A stretch of DNA of 13,755 bases from Anaerolineales bacterium (GTDB taxonomy: Bacteria > Chloroflexota > Anaerolineae > Anaerolineales > JABWBV01), in the NCBI GenBank assembly GCA_020634875.1, contig JACKAX010000050.1:1-13755 (forward strand), written 5' to 3'. The position numbers were made by a program, and so were the translations under genes. Positions 5,023 through 13,755 of this stretch are shown one piece after another. The notes beneath the pieces were generated by a model. It saw only the letters and a list, made by a program, of their open reading frames with translations. It was not told the DNA's origin and searched no databases. Each line of letters starts with the position of its first letter. The stretch's first letter is position 1.

Positions 5023-6264
5023 CTAGAGATGGACCTGATTTTGAACTTTGTAACCTAAAATATTTCGTCCAGATGCCCACACAGCTTCCTCGACCAGAGC
5101 GTGTTCGCGCATTTTTAGAAGGACTTCGTGGGTGGTTGTATCCCAGATACTGATATCATTTGTATCAGAAACTGTGATCAGGTGGCGTCCATCGGAAGTC
5201 CAAAGAAGATGTTTCGTGAAGGCATAATCCAGGTAGCTTTCGCTTAGGGTGTAGATGACCTTATTTTGAGAAACATCAAAAATCTGCACCGACGAGCCAC
5301 CAGAATACCCCAGCGCCAGCTGACTGCCACCCGGGGACCAGGCAACAGAACGCGCATCATAAAAATATGTTGGGGGGGCTGTTTTTTGATTGGTAACTTC
5401 AAAAAGCAGGACTTCTTCGCAGTTCCCACCTACATCCCCACCACAGCCTACAATCTGAGTGAGGGCTAGATACTGTCCATCTGCGGACCAGTGGGGGGAG
5501 CCAGCCCATCCTTCAGCGGTGTAAAGTTCGGTGATTTCATTGGAAGCAAGTTGCCAAAGCGATATCGTACTGCCATAGTTCTGGTCTTCATACTTGCTAA
5601 ACGCTAAACTGGTTCCATCCGGCGACCAGGCCAGACCACCAATGAAAGCACCTTCAAGAGATTTTACAACCTCCCAAGTCTTCACATCCCAAAGCTGTAA
5701 TTTCCCGTCCTCGCCCATGGTCGCTAACTGCTGGCTATCCGATGCCCAGGAGAGGGCTGAAACCTCAGATGAATCTGCGCTCAACGTGTGGAGGATAGTT
5801 TGGCTGGCGTCGTCCCAAATCATCACCAGGCCGTTGTTGTCGGAAAAAGCGAGGAGGTTCCCGTCCGGGGACCAGGCGATGTGTGTGATGCTCATGGCCG
5901 GATTGTTCAGGGTCTGTTGCAAAGCTAAAGTTTCGGGATCATAAAACCAGACGCCGACCGCGCTGGCGACGGCCAGGACACTCCCATCGGGTTTCAGGGA
6001 AAAGTCTCGAATGGACCCGCGCCCGAAACGGATTAAGCTTTCCATTTGCGAAAGGGTGTCGAGGGATAGGGGGCCGCGCGGCGTGGGGGTAGGCGTTACC
6101 GTCGGAGTTGGCACGGGCGTCTGGGTTGACGTACTCGTCGCCGGCATCTCCGTCGGCTGCACCGGAACCACCTCAGCCGTCGGCGCGAGGGCCTGACTGC
6201 CACACGCCAGGGAAACAACTGTTAAAATGAACACCAAATAAAACAAAAAATCCTTTCTCTTCAT
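5023..6264 (-). CDS. WD40-repeat lipoprotein, truncated by a TAG codon
   Basis: The ATG at 6264 is chosen because AGGAG lies seven bases upstream and the protein then begins with a lipoprotein signal, MKRKDFLFYLVFILTVVSLAC, with C21 as the likely lipidation site. The longer reading frame to 6375 would overlap the upstream gene. Residues 22-65 form a Pro/Thr linker. WD40 blades follow, recognisable as (A/S)WSPDG and a closing (V/I)W: GVWFYDPE, VMIWDDAS, LQLWDVKTWEV, ISLWQLAS, VQIFDVSQN, ISIWDTTTHEV. It stops at NQVHL-TAG. VHLW is the expected blade ending, so TGG to TAG is the simplest lesion. The 413-residue product is an incomplete propeller but has no other lesion, so it may still be made. 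Role: probably a membrane-anchored protein-binding scaffold. It lies 16 bases after the TPR gene. Confidence 0.85.
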   Translation of the reverse strand: MKRKDFLFYLVFILTVVSLACGSQALAPTAEVVPVQPTEMPATSTSTQTPVPTPTVTPTPTPRGPLSLDTLSQMESLIRFGRGSIRDFSLKPDGSVLAVASAVGVWFYDPETLALQQTLNNPAMSITHIAWSPDGNLLAFSDNNGLVMIWDDASQTILHTLSADSSEVSALSWASDSQQLATMGEDGKLQLWDVKTWEVVKSLEGAFIGGLAWSPDGTSLAFSKYEDQNYGSTISLWQLASNEITELYTAEGWAGSPHWSADGQYLALTQIVGCGGDVGGNCEEVLLFEVTNQKTAPPTYFYDARSVAWSPGGSQLALGYSGGSSVQIFDVSQNKVIYTLSESYLDYAFTKHLLWTSDGRHLITVSDTNDISIWDTTTHEVLLKMREHALVEEAVWASGRNILGYKVQNQVHL

Positions 6265-6280
6265 CGCTACTCCTACAAAA

Positions 6281-7078
6281 CTAGCGAACAACATCTTGGC
6301 AAACGATGTCAGCCCCTTGAGATCCTCTAGGTGGGAGGAAATAACATTCCTTTTCAGGCTCTTCATAACCATCATAGGTTTGCGTATCTGTCGTATAAGT
6401 CACAGGAAACCGCGTACAAGGCTGGAATAAAAGGCCCAGGAATGCCTGTCCAATGCTGTCCGCATTCCAAAAAGCCAACCAATTTACGCGATCACAAGCG
6501 TAGCGCGTCCATTCGCTATCACCTCGATCCAGTTCTAGAAAGTTTAGATAGTCGGCATAAGCGCCATCTAATTTCCCGGTTTTGTCTTGCACAAAGGCAC
6601 GGTTGTAAAAAAGTTGTGCCGAGCGAATGCCATGATGGTAAGCAGCATTGAAATCACCCAAAGCCAGCTCATATTGATTTTGTCTTTGATAGGTAATGCC
6701 TCTGTTATAGTAGGCATAGGCTGATGTAGAGTCTAATTCGATTGCCTTATCGTAATTTTCCAGCGCCAGTTTAAAGCTCCCCTCTACATCATATACATTT
6801 CCAAGCCCAACGTAAGCATTAACGTTATCGGGATCAAGACGAATGGCTTCCTGATAAGCTTTTTTAGCAGCATCATTGTCCTTTTCATCAAAAAAATAGG
6901 AATCCCCCGCTTGCACATATTCTGCTGCCCTTTCCTGACGGGAAGCTTGAGATTCTGGCCTGAACAACACAAGGACAATGGCACAAAACAGAATACTACA
7001 AAGGATGGAACAACCACTAACCCCCAGGACAAGAAGTTTTTTTTGATTGGTAGTGATTTTAGAGAGATTGGGTTCCAT
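6281..7078 (-). CDS. Membrane-anchored TPR protein
   Basis: This 265-residue protein has one hydrophobic segment at residues 15-39 behind a short polar N-terminus, with no lipobox in a usual place. It is followed by four tetratricopeptide-like repeats at about 51-84, 85-118, 119-152 and 153-186 (for example AKKAYQEAIRLDPDNVNAYV and ALENYDKAIELDSTSAYAYY). The C-terminal 75 residues are not TPR and hold four Cys (195, 221, 245, 260), which could form disulfides if the domain lies outside the membrane. The start ATG at 7078 has AGGAG eight bases upstream. It sits 21 bases after the PPC gene and 16 before the WD40 gene, so it is probably in the same operon. Role by family: an adaptor for protein complexes at the cell envelope. 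No partner can be named. The gene is visibly AT-richer than the sugar genes. Confidence 0.85.
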   Translation of the reverse strand: MEPNLSKITTNQKKLLVLGVSGCSILCSILFCAIVLVLFRPESQASRQERAAEYVQAGDSYFFDEKDNDAAKKAYQEAIRLDPDNVNAYVGLGNVYDVEGSFKLALENYDKAIELDSTSAYAYYNRGITYQRQNQYELALGDFNAAYHHGIRSAQLFYNRAFVQDKTGKLDGAYADYLNFLELDRGDSEWTRYACDRVNWLAFWNADSIGQAFLGLLFQPCTRFPVTYTTDTQTYDGYEEPEKECYFLPPRGSQGADIVCQDVVR

Positions 7079-7099
7079 AGGTTTTCTCCTGGTATTCCT

Positions 7100-8548
7100 T
7101 TACCGCTTCACCATCGGCAAATACACCTTCTCCCCTCCACCCAACCGGACACTATAACTTCCTGACACCGTGCTTGAGTTCGGAAGAATCCAGATGAAAT
7201 AAGTCCCGCTTACATCGGCTACAAAAGTGAGTGTCGTATGGACATTGCCACTCCCGTTGGCCGTACATTGCAAGGCGATAATCGTAGAGAGCGTCGGATC
7301 ATAGACACGCATCCCTAAACCGGTGCGCGTGTACCCCTGGCAAAGACTCCCGGAACCCGTTGCGAGACTGCTGCTCACATTGTAAGTTTCGATGGTGTAG
7401 CTTTCCCCAGCCTGAGCCTCGATTCGGTACCAATCGCGGTCCACAAAGTTGGTGGCATAGTTAGCGAGGCGGGTTTCGATGTCGGTGGTTAAGGGGTGGC
7501 TGGGGGCAAGTAAATAAGCATTATGAGGAACGTTGTTTGGCTCAAATTTTGCATCCCATGAGGCTTCTGGTTGGATATATTGGGGCAAAACGCGCAGGCT
7601 ATAATCGCCATTCAAGCTCTCATTATTTGGAATTACCCTGATGAAATAAGTACCTGCCAAACCTGGGGTGAAGGCAAGAATGTTATGTACATTCCCAGCT
7701 CCCATGCTGTAATAACTAGGTAGACAAGAATAGGTAATTTCAGTTCCTGACGCGTCATATAAACTTAACCCAACCCCATAGCCATTCCCATGCCCACACC
7801 ACCCACCTGAAGAAACATTCAAAGAAACATCCACATTGAATAACTCGATCACATAGGGTTTGTTTGCCTCTGCTTCAAAGTGATACCAGTCTGAGTCCAC
7901 AAAATTCGTAGCATAGCCCACAATTCGCGCTTCAATATCTGAACTAATAGCATGCTCACGCCCAACTAGAATCTCGGCTGCATTTACCAAACGATTGTTA
8001 GGCTCAAAATTGTCATCCCAAGAAGCATTCAAATGGTTATAGGGTAGTAAAACACGCACTTTATAATTACCTATCACCACTGTGCTATTAGATATAACCC
8101 GAAAATAATATATTCCGTTAAGACCTGCTGTAAATTGTGCAATATTATGGACATTTCCAGCACCAAGGTTGTAATAATTGGGTAAACATGAATAAGCAAT
8201 TTCCGTTACAGATGCATCATAAATATTCAGCCCTACCCCGTAGTCACTACCGTGCCCACATTGTCCCCCTGAAATAGTGTTTAAACTCGCATCCACCTCA
8301 AACAACTCCACCACATACGTCACCCCCGCCTCCGCACTGAACTTATACCAATCCTGATCTCCGCCAGCATTGATCGCGGCATTCACATAATTTTCACGCC
8401 CAATCGCTGCCAAATTCTGCGCCTCCCCGGAATTGTTATTCGGCTCCACTTCATTGATGGGGCCATCGGGGGCCGCGGCCACCACAGAAAACCAACCTAA
8501 AACGAATAAACTAACGGCAAACATACGAAAAAAAACTTTTCGAAACAT
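7100..8548 (-). CDS. Secreted protein with three tandem PPC-type (pre-peptidase C-terminal) domains
   Basis: The ATG at 8548 has AAGGAG six bases upstream and gives a clean Sec signal peptide (MFRKVFFRMFAVSLFVLGWF, then SVVAAA); a TTG fifteen bases earlier is less likely. The mature part has three repeats of about 150 residues. Each opens with EPNN (35-38, 182-185, 336-339), has a D-x-DWY motif (64-68, 218-222, 370-374) and ends with a Y.(I/F)R/W.(L/I) strand: this is the PPC fold, usually attached to secreted peptidases. Here there is no peptidase domain, so the repeats are probably binding or adhesion modules. Each repeat holds one Cys pair (97/121, 251/275, 403/428). The last residues, KVYLPMVKR, resemble the tail of many Chloroflexota exported proteins. 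The gene follows the DJ-1-like gene by 21 bases. Confidence 0.88.
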   Translation of the reverse strand: MFRKVFFRMFAVSLFVLGWFSVVAAAPDGPINEVEPNNNSGEAQNLAAIGRENYVNAAINAGGDQDWYKFSAEAGVTYVVELFEVDASLNTISGGQCGHGSDYGVGLNIYDASVTEIAYSCLPNYYNLGAGNVHNIAQFTAGLNGIYYFRVISNSTVVIGNYKVRVLLPYNHLNASWDDNFEPNNRLVNAAEILVGREHAISSDIEARIVGYATNFVDSDWYHFEAEANKPYVIELFNVDVSLNVSSGGWCGHGNGYGVGLSLYDASGTEITYSCLPSYYSMGAGNVHNILAFTPGLAGTYFIRVIPNNESLNGDYSLRVLPQYIQPEASWDAKFEPNNVPHNAYLLAPSHPLTTDIETRLANYATNFVDRDWYRIEAQAGESYTIETYNVSSSLATGSGSLCQGYTRTGLGMRVYDPTLSTIIALQCTANGSGNVHTTLTFVADVSGTYFIWILPNSSTVSGSYSVRLGGGEKVYLPMVKR

Positions 8549-8569
8549 AGCACACTCCTTCAAGGAAAC

Positions 8570-9067
8570 TTACTCCAAGCGTTTGGAGAGAAACTCACCC
8601 ACCTTGACCAGGCGGATCAAAAGTAAAAAGAAATCTTCTTGAGACAATTCTTCCTGCGTCAACACGCGCTTCGAGTTCAGGAAAAAGGGCCAGGCCTGCT
8701 CCTGGCGAAAAGTCAGTTGGGCCTCGTGGGACAAAATTAACGTGCCTTGCGCCGCCATCAGGCTTTGCATTACCTGATGAAACCGCGGATCAATGGATAA
8801 TGCCTGGACACACCGCATCCCGCCGGGAATAATCATCAAGCCCGAAGAAGCAGGTTGCTTGAGAGCATCCAAGGCATAATCCGGGCGCAAACACACCCCA
8901 TTGGCCCCCACGATTTCACCAGGGATCGTGCCGACCAGCGCAATCCGCAACCCAGCTCTCCGCATCGTCACCAGACAGGTCGTGACGAACGCTTCTTCAA
9001 AACCAGGGGCAATAAACAGATAAATTTGAGAAGAACCGGATTTGGCATAGCTCACATTCCCAAGCAT
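8570..9067 (-). CDS. DJ-1/PfpI-family protein with Ser at the usual Cys position
   Basis: From the ATG at 9067 this encodes 165 residues. The fold shows as IYLFIAPGFEEAFVTTCLVT (14-33; E24 or E25 matches the conserved acidic residue), a second strand RIALVG, and GLMIIPGGMR (76-85), then QGTLILSHEAQL (107-118). The last aligns with the nucleophile elbow AAICHGPQLL of PfpI-type proteins. Cys is replaced by Ser (S113), while the next His is kept. It may therefore be a binding or regulatory member, or a Ser-based variant, instead of a standard Cys enzyme. An earlier ATG at 9172 would add 35 residues read from a repeat-like tract (RRNAQKFQGISRKTRKNAR), so I prefer 9067, although no strong ribosome site precedes it. 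It is probably the first gene of the minus-strand cluster and is divergent from the NB-ARC gene. Confidence 0.75.
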   Translation of the reverse strand: MLGNVSYAKSGSSQIYLFIAPGFEEAFVTTCLVTMRRAGLRIALVGTIPGEIVGANGVCLRPDYALDALKQPASSGLMIIPGGMRCVQALSIDPRFHQVMQSLMAAQGTLILSHEAQLTFRQEQAWPFFLNSKRVLTQEELSQEDFFLLLIRLVKVGEFLSKRLE

Positions 9068-9110
9068 AGCGGGAAACGCCACCCGTAAACGCGCATTCTT
9101 CCTCGTTTTT

Positions 9111-9160
9111 CTCGAAATTCCTTGAAATTTCTGCGCGTTCCTGCGCGTTTCTGCGCGGCC
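9111..9160. repeat. 10-bp-period tract in the divergent intergenic region
   Basis: Five 10-mers stand head to tail: CTCGAAATTC, CTTGAAATTT, CTGCGCGTTC, CTGCGCGTTT, CTGCGCGGCC. The last three share CTGCGCG. The tract resembles the short CTGCG/TTGCG-rich intergenic repeats scattered in many environmental genomes. It lies between the DJ-1-like and NB-ARC starts, where it could affect DNA bending or regulator binding. Confidence 0.55.
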
Positions 9161-9171
9161 TGGGCCAATCA

Positions 9172-9201
9172 TTGGTAATTTTTCCTCAGCAATGGTAAAA
9201 A
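9172..9201 (+). promoter_or_regulatory. Candidate sigma-70-type promoter of the NB-ARC gene
   Basis: TTGGTA at 9172-9177 and TAAAAA at 9196-9201 are separated by 18 bases. A start six or seven bases after the -10 box would fall on the ATG at 9208, giving a leaderless messenger. This agrees with the lack of a usable ribosome site there (AAAGG touches the ATG). Both boxes are weak matches. Confidence 0.25.
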
Positions 9202-9207
9202 TAAAGG

Positions 9208-10593
9208 ATGAAACACCGGGAGCGTGCTTTTTCCTTTTTGGATTCCATTCATCAGGCCCTCCGCGCCTGGCGGCAAGTGGACGGGAAACCTGAAAGCCTG
9301 TTGACCTCTCTCCTCCTCGTCCGCCACCAACAACAAAGCCTGGACCCCACCGCCCAACGGCTCGCCACCAATCAAATTCTTTTAGAAGGGCTGGAAGCAC
9401 TTGCCGAAAAAGATGCCCTGGGCGCGCAAATTCTTCGCTCGCGCTTTCTCAACGGCGAAGCGATTCTCAAGGTCGCCTACCAGCTTAATCTCAGCGAATA
9501 TCAAGTCAACCGCATCCAACATAAAGCGCTAGAAAATCTGGCCGACCTGCTGCAAACGCGCGAACAGGCTTACCAGCAAGCCGTCGCGCTGGAACTGGCG
9601 AAAAATCTCCCGCCGCCCTCCTACACCACCTTATTCGGGTTGGAAAACTTGCAAGCGAAAATTTTGGACGTGCTCCAACGCCCTACCGCACCCTGGCTGC
9701 TTGCCCTGACCGGTTTGGGGGGACTGGGGAAAACCGCCCTCGCCCATACCCTCGCCCAAAAAGTGATCCCGACATATCACTTTGAGCACCTCCTGTGGGT
9801 GCGTATTCCAGGCATGTTGGAAGGAAGTGCTCCCCCAGAACAAACCTTCGAGGCCTTAATGGGGCAAATCGCCGCCCAACTTTTCCCCACGCAAGACCCC
9901 GAACTGCGCCAAAAAAGCCAAATTCGCCAGACCTTGAAAGCTGCCCCCCACCTGGTCGTCATCGACAACCTGGAAACGGACGCGGAAGCGCTCTATTTGT
10001 TTGAACACCTCCAAGACTTAGGCGGGCCAAGCAAATTCCTGATCACCAGCCGCACCTGTCCCCCCGTCCAAGCCAACCTTTTGACCATTCCGCTGGAAGA
10101 ATTGACCCAACCGGAGGCCCTAGCCCTTTTGCGTCACCAGGCACACCTGACGGGACAAGAAGTCCTCGTTGAGGCCCCCGTCGAGACCCTCCTCCCGATA
10201 TATGAGGCGACTGGCGGGAATCCCCTGGCCCTCAAACTCATCGTGGGGTTAGCCAACCTGCTGCCTTTGCCCTATATTTTGCAAGACCTCCCCAAAGCCC
10301 AGATTGGGCAGGTCGAAAAGCTGTACACTCAGATTTACCTCAAAACCTGGCAGACCCTCAGCCCCTCAGCCCGCACGCTGCTCCAATTTATGCCCCTCGT
10401 CGCGGAATCCGGTGGCACCGTCGCCCACTTACAAGCCCTGAGCGCACTGTCAGAACGGGAGTTGTCCGCGGCTCTCGCCGAATTAGTCACCCGTTCGCTT
10501 CTGGAGATGCGCGGTCATGCCCTCGAACGGCGGTATGGCATTCACCGCTTGACCGAGACCTTTCTCCGCACCGAAATCATCCATTGGGAGTGA
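9208..10593 (+). CDS. STAND NTPase: sigma-region-4-like HTH plus NB-ARC
   Basis: This is a 461-residue protein. Residues 1-125 are helical and include a segment like sigma-70 region 4 (ILRSRFLNGEAILKVAYQLN, 75-94, then LSEYQVNRIQHKALENL), a probable helix-turn-helix. The NTPase follows: Walker A GLGGLGKT 169-176, Walker B LVVIDN 249-254, a sensor-like FLITSRT 277-283, the GxP motif GGNPLAL 336-342, then a winged-helix-like part with YGIHRL (443-448) where NB-ARC proteins carry an MHD-type motif. By family it should be an ATP-switched signalling protein kept inactive until a sensor domain detects its signal. The sensor would be the TPR protein encoded next. The 461-residue chain stops before any repeat domain, while related proteins usually carry TPRs on the same chain. 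An indel at the gene end could have split one long gene. The target signal is unknown. Confidence 0.82.
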   Translation: MKHRERAFSFLDSIHQALRAWRQVDGKPESLLTSLLLVRHQQQSLDPTAQRLATNQILLEGLEALAEKDALGAQILRSRFLNGEAILKVAYQLNLSEYQVNRIQHKALENLADLLQTREQAYQQAVALELAKNLPPPSYTTLFGLENLQAKILDVLQRPTAPWLLALTGLGGLGKTALAHTLAQKVIPTYHFEHLLWVRIPGMLEGSAPPEQTFEALMGQIAAQLFPTQDPELRQKSQIRQTLKAAPHLVVIDNLETDAEALYLFEHLQDLGGPSKFLITSRTCPPVQANLLTIPLEELTQPEALALLRHQAHLTGQEVLVEAPVETLLPIYEATGGNPLALKLIVGLANLLPLPYILQDLPKAQIGQVEKLYTQIYLKTWQTLSPSARTLLQFMPLVAESGGTVAHLQALSALSERELSAALAELVTRSLLEMRGHALERRYGIHRLTETFLRTEIIHWE

Positions 10594-10595
10594 AG

Positions 10596-10864
10596 ATGCC
10601 AGCCCCCTCCTTTTTACAAGGTGTTGCCAGAAATCTCCGCTATTGGCACGCGCAATGTGTCCCTTTTTCGGACGTTGTGTTAGAAATTTTTACCGTCGAA
10701 GCCCTCAATCTTACCCAAGCCTTGCTGGCCGGCTTCGCGTTCCCCGAAACGCACGCGTCCGCGTGCGCCCTAACCCTGGCCCTGTTTGAATGCATCGAAG
10801 CGCGTGGGGCCTGGCAGACCTGGCAACCCATTTTAGAGAAAAGTTTAGCAACGGAAAACCTCTC
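10596..10864 (+). pseudogene. 5' part of a TPR protein gene interrupted by an IS21 element
   Basis: The ATG at 10596 has GGGAG five bases upstream and follows the NB-ARC stop by two bases. The frame encodes a helical sequence (PSFLQGVARNLRYWHAQC at the start, ending EKSLATENLS) and then runs into the insertion element, which adds VK and a TGA at 10872-10874. If the element and one CCTCTC copy are removed, ATENLS is followed in frame by APVKIKLLNQLGFVYMQRG, a TPR helix, from the other side. The present stub is about 92 residues and holds no complete TPR I can call. The intact gene probably encoded the sensor or repeat partner of the NB-ARC protein. Confidence 0.8.
10859..10864 (+). repeat. Target-site duplication, left copy (CCTCTC)
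   Basis: CCTCTC at the left border matches the six bases directly after the right end of the IS element (13317-13322). The outer inverted repeats begin with TGT immediately inside both copies, as expected for an IS21-family insertion. Confidence 0.85.
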
Positions 10865-10912
10865 TGTCAAGTGACAATTAGAAATGCTCATTGGTGACAA
10901 TTAGAAAGGCCC
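10865..10912 (+). repeat. IS21 terminal inverted repeat, istB side
   Basis: GACAATTAGAAA occurs twice, starting at 10873 and 10896, 23 bases apart. IS21-family ends usually carry such repeated blocks as transposase-binding sites. The same pair in the same spacing stands at the other end. Confidence 0.88.
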
Positions 10913-10941
10913 ATAAAAAGGATAGGAGTTTGCTTTAACAA

Positions 10942-11724
10942 TCAGCCAGAGGAGGTAGGGGAGGGGAGTTGTTTTTGGTTGCGTTGGGCGGCTTGTTCGG
11001 CCCGATAGCTGGAGACCTCGGCTCCGAATTCGAGGATCACGGCATGGTGAACGACCCGATCAATGGCGGCCGCCGTGGTGAGGGGGTCTTTGAAGATTTT
11101 GTCCCATTCGGAAAAAATCAAATTGGAAGTAATGACGACACTGCGCCGTTCATAACGTTCGGCCAGGAAGGTAAAGAGGACTTCCATTTCTTCCCGACTT
11201 TGTTGGACATAGCCAATGTCATCGAGAATGATCACGGCATAAGTATCCAAACGGCGGAGTTCGCGTTCCAAGCCGAAGTCGCGCTTGGCCTGGAGCAGAC
11301 GCCCGACCAGTTTGTAGGCAGGCAGAAACAAAACGGCATGTTCTTTTTGGAGCCATTCATAGGCGAGGGCCGCGGCCAAATGGGTTTTGCCGGTGCCTGG
11401 TAAGCCAAACAAGAGAATATTCTGGCTCTGGGCGATGAAATCCCCGGTTTGCAGGCTGGCAATTTGGCGCCGGAGGCGCACGGGCAACCGGTTTTGCTCG
11501 AAGGTGGCCAGCGTTTTGCCGAGGGGGAGATGCGCTTGCAGGAGGAGCCGTTCAATGCGGCGCTGATGCCGCCCGGTGAGTTCCTGTTCAAACAGATATA
11601 ACAAAAACGTCTCGCAGGGCCAGGTTTCGCGTTGAGCGAGGGCCAAGCTCTCTTCCAAGACCTGGGCACAGGTTGGGAGCCGCAAGGTCTTGGCATAAAA
11701 ACGGAGCGTCTCAAGCGTGGACAT
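10942..11724 (-). CDS. istB: IS21-family transposition ATPase IstB
   Basis: This 260-residue AAA+ helper ATPase of IS21 transposition is related to DnaC and regulates target capture by the IstA transposase. Visible motifs are Walker A GLPGTGKT (107-114), Walker B VIILDDIG (164-171), sensor-1 ITSN (198-201) and an Arg-finger region AAAIDRVVHH (218-227). The length is normal for IstB. The ATG at 11724 has AGGAGGG about six bases upstream and overlaps the istA 3' end by 14 bases, so its translation is probably coupled to istA. No lesion is seen. Confidence 0.95.
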   Translation of the reverse strand: MSTLETLRFYAKTLRLPTCAQVLEESLALAQRETWPCETFLLYLFEQELTGRHQRRIERLLLQAHLPLGKTLATFEQNRLPVRLRRQIASLQTGDFIAQSQNILLFGLPGTGKTHLAAALAYEWLQKEHAVLFLPAYKLVGRLLQAKRDFGLERELRRLDTYAVIILDDIGYVQQSREEMEVLFTFLAERYERRSVVITSNLIFSEWDKIFKDPLTTAAAIDRVVHHAVILEFGAEVSSYRAEQAAQRNQKQLPSPTSSG

Positions 11725-13219
11725 AGGGACCCTCCTGCAACAATTGATCGTACACCGCTAACTGCACCAAGGGGGCCACCAAGACGGGGGGTGGGGCGGG
11801 TTCCAGGTGTAAGAGGCGGACCACATCCTGTTCCTGCCAGGGCTGCCCGGTCGCCAGCAAGTGTTCCAGGGCGTGCGCCACGTCACTTTCCAGCGTTTTC
11901 GCCGCCAAATGCAGCACCCGCAGATAACTCAAGTCCGCCTGCCGCGGCCCCAGCCGGGTATTCAGGTCCTCCCAGGCTTGTTGAAAAATGCGTTGTGGAA
12001 ACAACGCTTCCCGATAACGATACTGGCGAAAGCCTCCGGGTTTCCGCAAAAGACTGTCAATGAGATGCCGATAGTTCACGTGGCATTTGTGATAGCCCGT
12101 GAGCCGCGGCACCGTTGTGATTTCCTGCTGGCCGAGGGTGATCGTCACCTCCCATTCCGTGACAAAGACCGTGACGACCCGCCCGATCAAACTCGTGGGC
12201 ACCGAATACAGATTGTTGAGCACCCGGATCATGCTCCCACGATTGACCCGGACTTGCAGTTGGCGCGGGGCTTGCAAGGGGGCCACCGTGAGCGGTTTCA
12301 TCACCGCCACTTCCCCTTCCAGCCGTTTTTGCCGCGGGCGGTTGCGTTTTTCGAGCACCTCTTCGATGAATGCCTGCCAGGCCGCCAAGCTGGGAAAGTC
12401 CCGGCTGCCGCGCAGCGTCAGCGCTTGGGTCAAGGCCCGTTTCAGCCCGCCGTTCGACGCTTCCACATCCCCATTTTCCTGGGGCGTGTGGACATGCGTG
12501 GTCCGGGGTTGCAGCCCGTAGTGGGCTAACAGGTGCAGATAGCCTTCGGTATAGCCGCGCTCCTGCCCCGTTGCGGCCCGTTCCCCCCGCTTCAACTGGC
12601 GGGTGGCCGCTGAACTATGATCGGTTTGGTGAAAGTGCGGCACATGGCCGAGTTTCATCAACGTCCGTGCCAGGGCCAATTGCAAGGCTAACAACGATTC
12701 CGATTGAGCTAACCCACCCCATTCCCAATTCGAATAGGGCAAGACACAATGCAGCCACAACCCCACAAAGGGTTGCCCCTGCACAGTCACCCCTAATTCG
12801 GTCAGCCAGGTCCCATCGGTTTGCAACACTTCTCCCAGCAGATGCACCTGTTCCAGCACCGCGACTTGGGGAAGATGGGTCGCTTTCCAATCGGCCACCC
12901 GGCGTTGGAACGTCCGCAGTTGCCCCGCCTGATAGCGTTCGGGCTGTTGTTCACACAACCAGGCAAACAAAGCTTTCGCTTCCAGGTGGGGACTCTGCGT
13001 CAAGTGTTGCGTGACGGCGGCCCAATCTTCGGCAAAGGGGTCCGCACGGGTGCGATACCTCCGCCGTTGCTTCAATTCACTGGGATACTTGCCCAGGTCT
13101 TCATAGCGAGCCACGGTTTTCCGGCTCTTCAGATTCGCGGTCGCGGCCGCTTGCGTTTGCGTTTTTCCGCGTCGGCGTGCTTGCATGATCAGCCTCACTT
13201 GGGCATCCGTGGCTGTCAT
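11711..13219 (-). CDS. istA: IS21-family DDE transposase IstA
   Basis: This 502-residue transposase has an N-terminal helix-turn-helix (about residues 5-40: AQVRLIMQARRRGKTQTQAA and following). The RNase-H-like catalytic core has D135 (VLQTDGTW), D200 (FHQTDHSS) and E253 (ENGDVEASNG), and a beta-rich C-terminal domain follows (MIRVLNNLYSVPTSLIGRVV). It cuts and joins the element ends at new sites together with IstB. The ATG at 13219 has GGAGG about seven bases upstream. The length is typical of the family and the frame is intact. Confidence 0.95.
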   Translation of the reverse strand: MTATDAQVRLIMQARRRGKTQTQAAATANLKSRKTVARYEDLGKYPSELKQRRRYRTRADPFAEDWAAVTQHLTQSPHLEAKALFAWLCEQQPERYQAGQLRTFQRRVADWKATHLPQVAVLEQVHLLGEVLQTDGTWLTELGVTVQGQPFVGLWLHCVLPYSNWEWGGLAQSESLLALQLALARTLMKLGHVPHFHQTDHSSAATRQLKRGERAATGQERGYTEGYLHLLAHYGLQPRTTHVHTPQENGDVEASNGGLKRALTQALTLRGSRDFPSLAAWQAFIEEVLEKRNRPRQKRLEGEVAVMKPLTVAPLQAPRQLQVRVNRGSMIRVLNNLYSVPTSLIGRVVTVFVTEWEVTITLGQQEITTVPRLTGYHKCHVNYRHLIDSLLRKPGGFRQYRYREALFPQRIFQQAWEDLNTRLGPRQADLSYLRVLHLAAKTLESDVAHALEHLLATGQPWQEQDVVRLLHLEPAPPPVLVAPLVQLAVYDQLLQEGPYVHA

Positions 13220-13268
13220 CTCTGACCTCCGTTTTTGCGGTCAGTGTATGCCAGTCCGTAGCCGTTGG

Positions 13269-13316
13269 GGGCCTTTCTAATTGTCGTTAATGTCTAATTC
13301 TAATTGTCGTTAAACA
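13269..13316 (-). repeat. IS21 terminal inverted repeat, istA side
   Basis: Read on the minus strand it starts TGTTTAACGACAATTAGAA and ends GACAATTAGAAAGGCCC, the mirror of the other end. The two GACAATTAGAA blocks are again 23 bases apart. The 49 bases between it and the istA start hold the istA ribosome site and probably its promoter, which I cannot place. Confidence 0.88.
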
Positions 13317-13322
13317 CCTCTC
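13317..13322 (+). repeat. Target-site duplication, right copy (CCTCTC)
   Basis: These six bases directly follow the CA end of the element and are identical to 10859-10864. Joining either copy to the other flank restores the reading frame of the TPR gene. Confidence 0.85.
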
Positions 13323-13755
13323 CGCGCCAGTGAAAATAAAGTTACTCAATCAATTAGGGTTTGTCTATATGCAGCGCGGCTTGTTCACTCAGGCCCAAGC
13401 CTGTCACGCAGATGCGGAGATCCTAGCCCAAACACACCCCTCCCCTCTGGATTTGGCGAACACCTGGTTTGGCTTAGCGCAGGTCGCCTTCACTCAGCAC
13501 CAATATGCCCCTGCCGAACAATATTGTCGTCAGGCCCTGGCAGACTTTGAGCAAGAGGCCGCCCATAAGAAAGTGAGTGCGGTCTACAACCTCTTCGGGC
13601 GGATCGGTCTGGAAAACGGAAATTATGAGGAAGCAGAAGGGTATTTTCGCCAGGCGGTAGCTTTGCGCCGCGTAGGACCCCGTTCACCACTCGTCCAAAT
13701 GCTTAATAATCTCGCCTTAGCCTTGCAAGCCCAAAAACGGTTCTCCGAAGCTTTG
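13317..13755 (+). pseudogene. 3' part of the interrupted TPR protein gene, runs off the window
   Basis: The frame is open from 13291 to the window end. Beyond the IS border it reads SAPVKIKLLNQLGFVYMQRG and then several TPR units: AQACHADAEILAQTHPSPLD, TWFGLAQVAFTQHQYAPAEQ with YCRQALADFEQ, then AVYNLFGRIGLENGNYEEAE with YFRQAVALRR, and LVQMLNNLALALQAQKRFSE. This is the repeat pattern of MalT/NB-ARC-associated TPR regions. An ATG at 13369 could restart translation inside the first repeat, but it has no clear ribosome site. The C-terminal end is outside the window. It is the downstream half of the gene begun at 10596. Confidence 0.82.

Follow-up and report, generated by a model that had tools for sequence, protein, structure and literature searches.

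An IS21-family insertion interrupting the TPR gene of a conserved NB-ARC/TPR pair, a possible split STAND switch, in an Anaerolineales bacterium

Analysis of a 13,755-bp stretch of DNA from an apparently uncultured Anaerolineales bacterium (contig JACKAX010000050.1, the whole of which we call the window) revealed an IS21-family insertion sequence (IS) within a gene encoding a TPR protein, immediately downstream of a gene encoding a helix-turn-helix (HTH)/NB-ARC protein. The TPR gene is split and the NB-ARC gene is intact. The IS struck the second gene of a conserved pair, and we propose that this pair encodes a STAND switch divided over two chains; to the event and this interpretation, taken as a whole, we give a probability of roughly 0.7. 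The struck gene pair is more interesting than the insertion itself, which serves as a natural knockout of a conserved, little-described NB-ARC/TPR pair and suggests that TPR-STAND switches can occur in a split form. The features on which this proposal is built are as follows (aa, amino acids).

9208-10593, plus strand: HTH/NB-ARC protein, 461 aa, intact, with GLGGLGKT at 169, LVVIDN at 249 and GGNP at 336
10596-10874, plus strand: TPR gene, first piece, a 92-aa frame of residues 1-90, two element-encoded residues and a stop
10859-10864: target duplication, left copy, CCTCTC
10865-13316: IS21-family element, 2452 bp, with TG...CA ends and with istA and istB on the minus strand
13317-13322: target duplication, right copy, CCTCTC
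13323-13755, plus strand: TPR gene, second piece, with TPR repeats, ending at the window end

The insertion site and the interrupted TPR gene

An earlier note on this DNA had claimed an IS21 insertion with a clean target duplication whose removal restores the TPR reading frame, and each part of this claim held. The element has istA and istB family matches, paired end repeats and TG...CA ends, and exact copies of CCTCTC lie at both of its flanks; target duplications of IS21 elements are 4-8 bp long. Joining the flanks with a single CCTCTC (...LEKSLATENLSAPVKIKLLNQLGFVY...) gave one open frame of 234 codons to the window end, homologous to other proteins across the junction. The insertion falls at codon 90 of the TPR gene, whose ATG (10596) is 2 nt past the NB-ARC stop, and the region beyond the element (13318-13755) matched TPR_12 with 89.1 bits (cut-off 30.1). 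Frame closure by itself is a 1-in-3 event, and retaining both 6-bp copies would likewise preserve the frame; we chose the one-copy repair because alignments of the joined protein with its three closest homologues, P0121, P0122 and P0123, show no gap at the junction.

The ends and the duplication were rejected as sole proof of the insertion, since 65 of the 206,832 TG...CA pairs spaced 1-5 kb apart in the whole window, the real site included, have an exact 6-bp repeat outside them. An identical 6-mer exactly 2452 bp further on was found at 4 of 11,291 window positions, again including the real site. A chance duplication was nevertheless rejected, because the paired end repeats and the homology of the joined protein across the junction exceed chance. 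The joined stretch had seven protein-database matches (candidates up to about 410 aa), the best of which, P0121 (390 aa), was 60% identical across the whole of that stretch. The contig encoding P0121 and that encoding P0002, the best relative of the NB-ARC protein (76% identical), are both 8363 bp long.

Conservation of the gene pair in relatives

Genome contigs were scanned with an alignment of the NB-ARC protein, and the best 80 of 116 confirmed loci were retained, almost all of them labelled Anaerolineae, Anaerolineales, Ardenticatenaceae or other Chloroflexota; one (L079) ends at the NB-ARC gene and was left out, giving 79 usable loci. TPR genes were recognized with a profile from 21 TPR proteins, 18 of which came from the loci themselves. 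A TPR gene adjoined the NB-ARC gene in 77 of the 79 loci (59 of 61 without the 18 profile sources), in agreement with the NB-ARC linkage described earlier. In 76 of the 79 the TPR gene was a single frame spanning the junction, so that the uninterrupted form of the gene is present in related genomes. In place of two separate genes, or of a homologue failing to span the junction, both these 76 loci and P0121 run across it. Judged from sequence, the two TPR pieces are one gene, because the loci carry one frame across the junction and P0121-P0123 align ungapped, and two separate TPR genes were rejected on the same evidence.

These data also bear on the possibility that two ordinary TPR genes flank the IS, or that the assembly was misjoined at a repeated element, with the frames matching by chance. 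The DNA comes from one contig of 13,755 bp, and an identical IstA on a second contig and a 90% identical IstA on a 2453-bp contig indicate that the element may be repeated; repeats cause misjoins. However, the exact 6-bp duplication, the one-frame gene in 76 of 79 relatives and the ungapped alignment of P0121-P0123 all stand against this explanation, and a misjoin is disfavoured because the gene would not carry on past a wrongly joined flank. We regard it as extremely improbable.

Two of the loci with a TPR gene depart from the common arrangement. In L051 (6938-9334) the HTH-like, NB-ARC and TPR parts are fused in 798 open codons, 792 from the first ATG, and this locus thereby holds a naturally fused, single-chain version of the pair. 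In L005 (about 8410-9600) the TPR gene, otherwise open, has an in-frame stop six residues past the equivalent insertion point; a sequencing error is not excluded. Both the window and 76 of the 77 loci that gave a TPR match (the broken L005 included) have the two-gene arrangement, leaving L051 as the only single chain. The TPR protein of the pair is usually about 400 aa, and the pair comes mainly from Anaerolineae and other Chloroflexota. No description of the NB-ARC/TPR pair was found in the literature searched, which is not proof that it is unpublished, nor was one seen in an excerpt of PMC7159879. The papers returned included one about caspase homologues and one about YprA helicases.

A proposed split STAND switch and the age of the insertion

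The first protein of the pair matched Pfam NB-ARC with 41 bits (cut-off 23.5). Its structure model had a confidence (pLDDT) of 81, and structural alignment of the nucleotide-binding module with its winged helix reaches the last residue. PF04545 is precomputed for some of its relatives among the 120 matches listed. Searches with PADLOC models returned only TRIP13 for the NB-ARC protein (E 0.044) and generic TPR models for the TPR piece (E 0.001). The NB-ARC protein is similar to AfsR, a SARP-NOD-TPR regulator (8k60_I, E 1.8e-9), but AfsR is a single chain whereas the window has two genes, and against the AfsR model NF053617 (cut-off 1430) the NB-ARC protein scored only 14.1 bits and the TPR piece 25.3 bits. 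Similarity to the FxSxx-COOH system TPR protein NF040586 was weak (26.5 bits, cut-off 300).

We infer that the pair is a split, two-chain STAND switch, in which a nucleotide-binding module and, putatively, a DNA-binding end would lie in the first protein, and an arm-like helical region and a TPR sensor in the second. In the single-chain relatives MalT and PH0952, the inducer binds to the TPR sensor, which also helps keep the module in its closed state. The pair shares with these proteins an NB-ARC-type module with a winged helix and a TPR sensor; unlike them, it consists of two separate genes, and its HTH-like part is N-terminal in the ATPase protein. In the structure model of P0121 the junction lies in a loop ahead of the main TPR array, and residues 4-85 form five helices, a placement in which the insertion would be near the presumed arm/sensor boundary and would remove most of the sensor. 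The ATPase would remain, perhaps with an arm fragment of 92 aa, but the full sensor would be gone, such that the window copy would be uninducible or weakly or partly de-repressed. Loss of one sensor may be tolerated because the genomes of nine relatives hold 1-5 matches each to the NB-ARC family (25 in total, at E 1e-20). The proposal that the NB-ARC protein has lost its partner fits the window copy, but the organism may keep other pairs.

A broader idea is that a two-gene STAND switch is widespread in Anaerolineae and their kin, that its TPR sensor is separable and has been lost repeatedly, and that the sensor-less state is tolerated or selected. Repeated loss is suggested because an IS lies in the window, a stop interrupts L005, and L024 and L080 have no adjoining TPR gene. 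If this were true, an inducible switch deprived of its sensor subunit would pass into a sensor-less state, tolerated by the cell or even selected; we hold the idea to be unlikely.

The age of the insertion was considered from the state of the TPR gene, both halves of which (234 codons) are still open. In simulations of neutral drift without indels, the probability of remaining open was 0.18 at 6% and 0.07 at 10% divergence. With indels set to 10% of substitutions it was 0.19 at 2% divergence and 0.04 at 4% divergence; raising the indels to 20% gave 0.05 at 2%. These models would place the age bound at about 2% to over 10% divergence, depending on the assumed indel rate. Changes unique to the window or to P0121 in the TPR part numbered 27 versus 18 with P0123 as outgroup (p 0.23) and 24 versus 21 with P0122 (p 0.77); with these two outgroups there was no significant acceleration in the window relative to P0121. 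Corresponding counts for the NB-ARC protein, window versus relative, were 24 versus 25 (P0007), 28 versus 23 (P0003), 25 versus 25 (P0004) and 24 versus 27 (P0005). Most of the divergence from P0121 is probably older than the insertion, because no significant relaxation was detected. Taken together, the insertion is supported as young only when set against the divergence of the nearest sequenced relative. The recency claimed earlier therefore stands in this relative sense, given the open halves and the lack of significant acceleration, but not as an absolute age. A strongly decayed old insertion was rejected.

The same observations could be explained by an old, tolerated insertion, with the first 92-aa piece or the second one still produced and in use and the gene divided, not lost. 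Both pieces are open, the second contains an in-frame GTG at 13330, and the absence of significant acceleration fits a gene still in use. Against this, the duplication and the element genes are intact, a gene free of constraint would stay open only while divergence is low, and no strong forward promoter was found beside the second piece, the sole forward match (13683-13710) lying within the gene. We consider a divided, functioning gene very unlikely and favour loss of the sensor subunit.

Several points weigh against the split-switch reading. The function of the pair is our inference. The alignment of MalT domain III (1hz4) with P0121 begins at residue 48 instead of residue 91, leaving the arm/sensor boundary unsettled, and unrelated TPR proteins (Rap, NprR and LGN) match P0121 equally well or better. 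The HTH match in the window is weak, with Sigma70_r4 at 19.4 bits falling under its cut-off of 24.1. The NB-ARC gene has no adjoining TPR gene in L024 (after 8389) or L080 (after 3436), and some loci (e.g. L053, L054, L056 and L072) fit the TPR profile only from position 30-48. The placement of P0002 with P0121 (8363 bp) and of P0007 with P0123 (28576 bp) on shared contigs rests on equal contig sizes only. Finally, changes in the window TPR part are somewhat more numerous than in P0121, and some relaxation is not excluded.

Anatomy of the element and its possible regulatory effects

The element has ordinary IS21 anatomy, and its insertion is a routine IS21 event of a common kind. Within it we identified the following features.

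10871-10914, minus strand: istB-end paired terminal repeats, 23 bp apart
10942-11724, minus strand: istB, AAA+ helper ATPase, 260 aa, with Walker A GLPGTGKT and Walker B VIILDD
11711-13219, minus strand: istA, transposase, 502 aa, with D135, D200 and E253 as triad
13275-13313, plus strand: istA-end paired terminal repeats, 23 bp apart

istA precedes istB with an overlap of 14 nt. IstB matched NF038214 with 244 bits (cut-off 200) and PF01695 with 200.6 bits (cut-off 24.1), as well as the solved IS5376 IstB (8q3w_A, E 9.4e-39). IstA matched Mu-transpos_C_2 with 49.2 bits (cut-off 27). The element shares with IS21 and IS5376 overlapping istA/istB genes, an AAA+ ATPase as IstB, two repeats per end, a terminal CA, a short target duplication, and -35 and -10 boxes at opposite ends. 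It differs from them in that IstA scored 149.3 bits against NF033546, slightly below the curated cut-off of 160, and had no match to a PDB chain by sequence at E 0.001. D135, D200 and E253, which from their positions we take to be the catalytic triad, were kept in 124 of 124 aligned sequences, comprising the window IstA, 119 database homologues and four locus frames, all of them homologues of this IstA.

Each end carries two GACAATTAGAA-type repeats with a 23-bp step, and none of 200 shuffles attained four matches; the element termini lie 8 nt beyond the outer repeat. When IstA was searched against 396 genomes from the class to which one relative belongs, 28 of them matched at E 0.001, and the best five (L085-L089) were 58-63% identical. 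In the three of these with both ends, L085, L086 and L087, the repeats are again paired with a 23-bp step, at no more than two mismatches. With their ends placed by the rule of 8 nt beyond the outer repeat, these three elements start with TG and finish with CA, and L087 has an exact 6-bp duplication, GAAAAA. Less favourable to this assignment, L085 and L086 had no exact duplication at ends set by the rule, the more distant L090 has single end repeats, and L091 has none at no more than two mismatches. IS21 members are characterized by L1/L2 and R1/R2 end repeats (PMC10122671, in excerpt), and another IS21 element has overlapping istA/istB and multiple end repeats (PMC4608216, in excerpt).

The istB end terminates in TTGACA in all four elements with both ends (the window element and L085-L087), at 10865-10870 in the window when read outward on the minus strand. 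Nucleotides 15-20 of the istA end are TATAAT in L085-L087 and TAGAAT in the window, and, from these sequences, a head-to-tail junction of 2-4 bp would yield a promoter with consensus spacing, as described for IS21 tandem copies with boxes at opposite ends (PMC10122671, in excerpt).

This terminus raises the possibility that the main effect of the insertion is regulatory, through a promoter that reads leftward, antisense to the beginning of the TPR gene and to the 3' end of the NB-ARC gene, and lowers NB-ARC expression. A promoter-like site at 10842-10870 on the minus strand combines the element's TTGACA end with the host sequence TAAACT 17 nt away, giving 10 of 12 consensus matches with TG ahead of the second hexamer; the conservation of the TTGACA terminus in four of four elements and the -35 box in the right end of IS21 (PMC10122671, in excerpt) are in line with it. 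However, the window held four promoter-like sites versus a shuffle mean of 1.9, so the match may be chance; among the flanks of the other elements only that of L087 matched (4 of 6, at 18 nt), L085 and L086 giving at most 2 of 6 at 16-18 nt; and the IS21 -35 box is described in the same excerpt as serving tandem copies. We think a mainly regulatory effect quite unlikely and retain disruption of the TPR gene as the preferred account.

Among the matches listed, an identical IstA occurs on a second contig, and the closest non-self IstA, P0129, is 90% identical and lies on a 2453-bp contig. Both are compatible with further copies of the element, and the P0129 contig, being about the size of the element, is perhaps a circle or a collapsed repeat. 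Element DNA searches of the nine relatives' genomes gave nothing beyond matches of 35-46 bases, in four of the nine. In viral contigs one stretch fitted a pattern, and none encoded a relative of IstA. IstB also gave 105 bits against the PADLOC DrmD model, which may flag ordinary IS21 helpers as defence genes.

Elsewhere, the window had no Rfam matches at gathering thresholds and none in a tRNA scan. A minus-strand frame at 8570-9400, overlapping the NB-ARC start, has weak DJ-1-like similarity (31.7 bits, cut-off 131), and the minus strand further upstream (5023-8563) encodes a PPC-domain protein, a TPR protein and a WD40-type protein.
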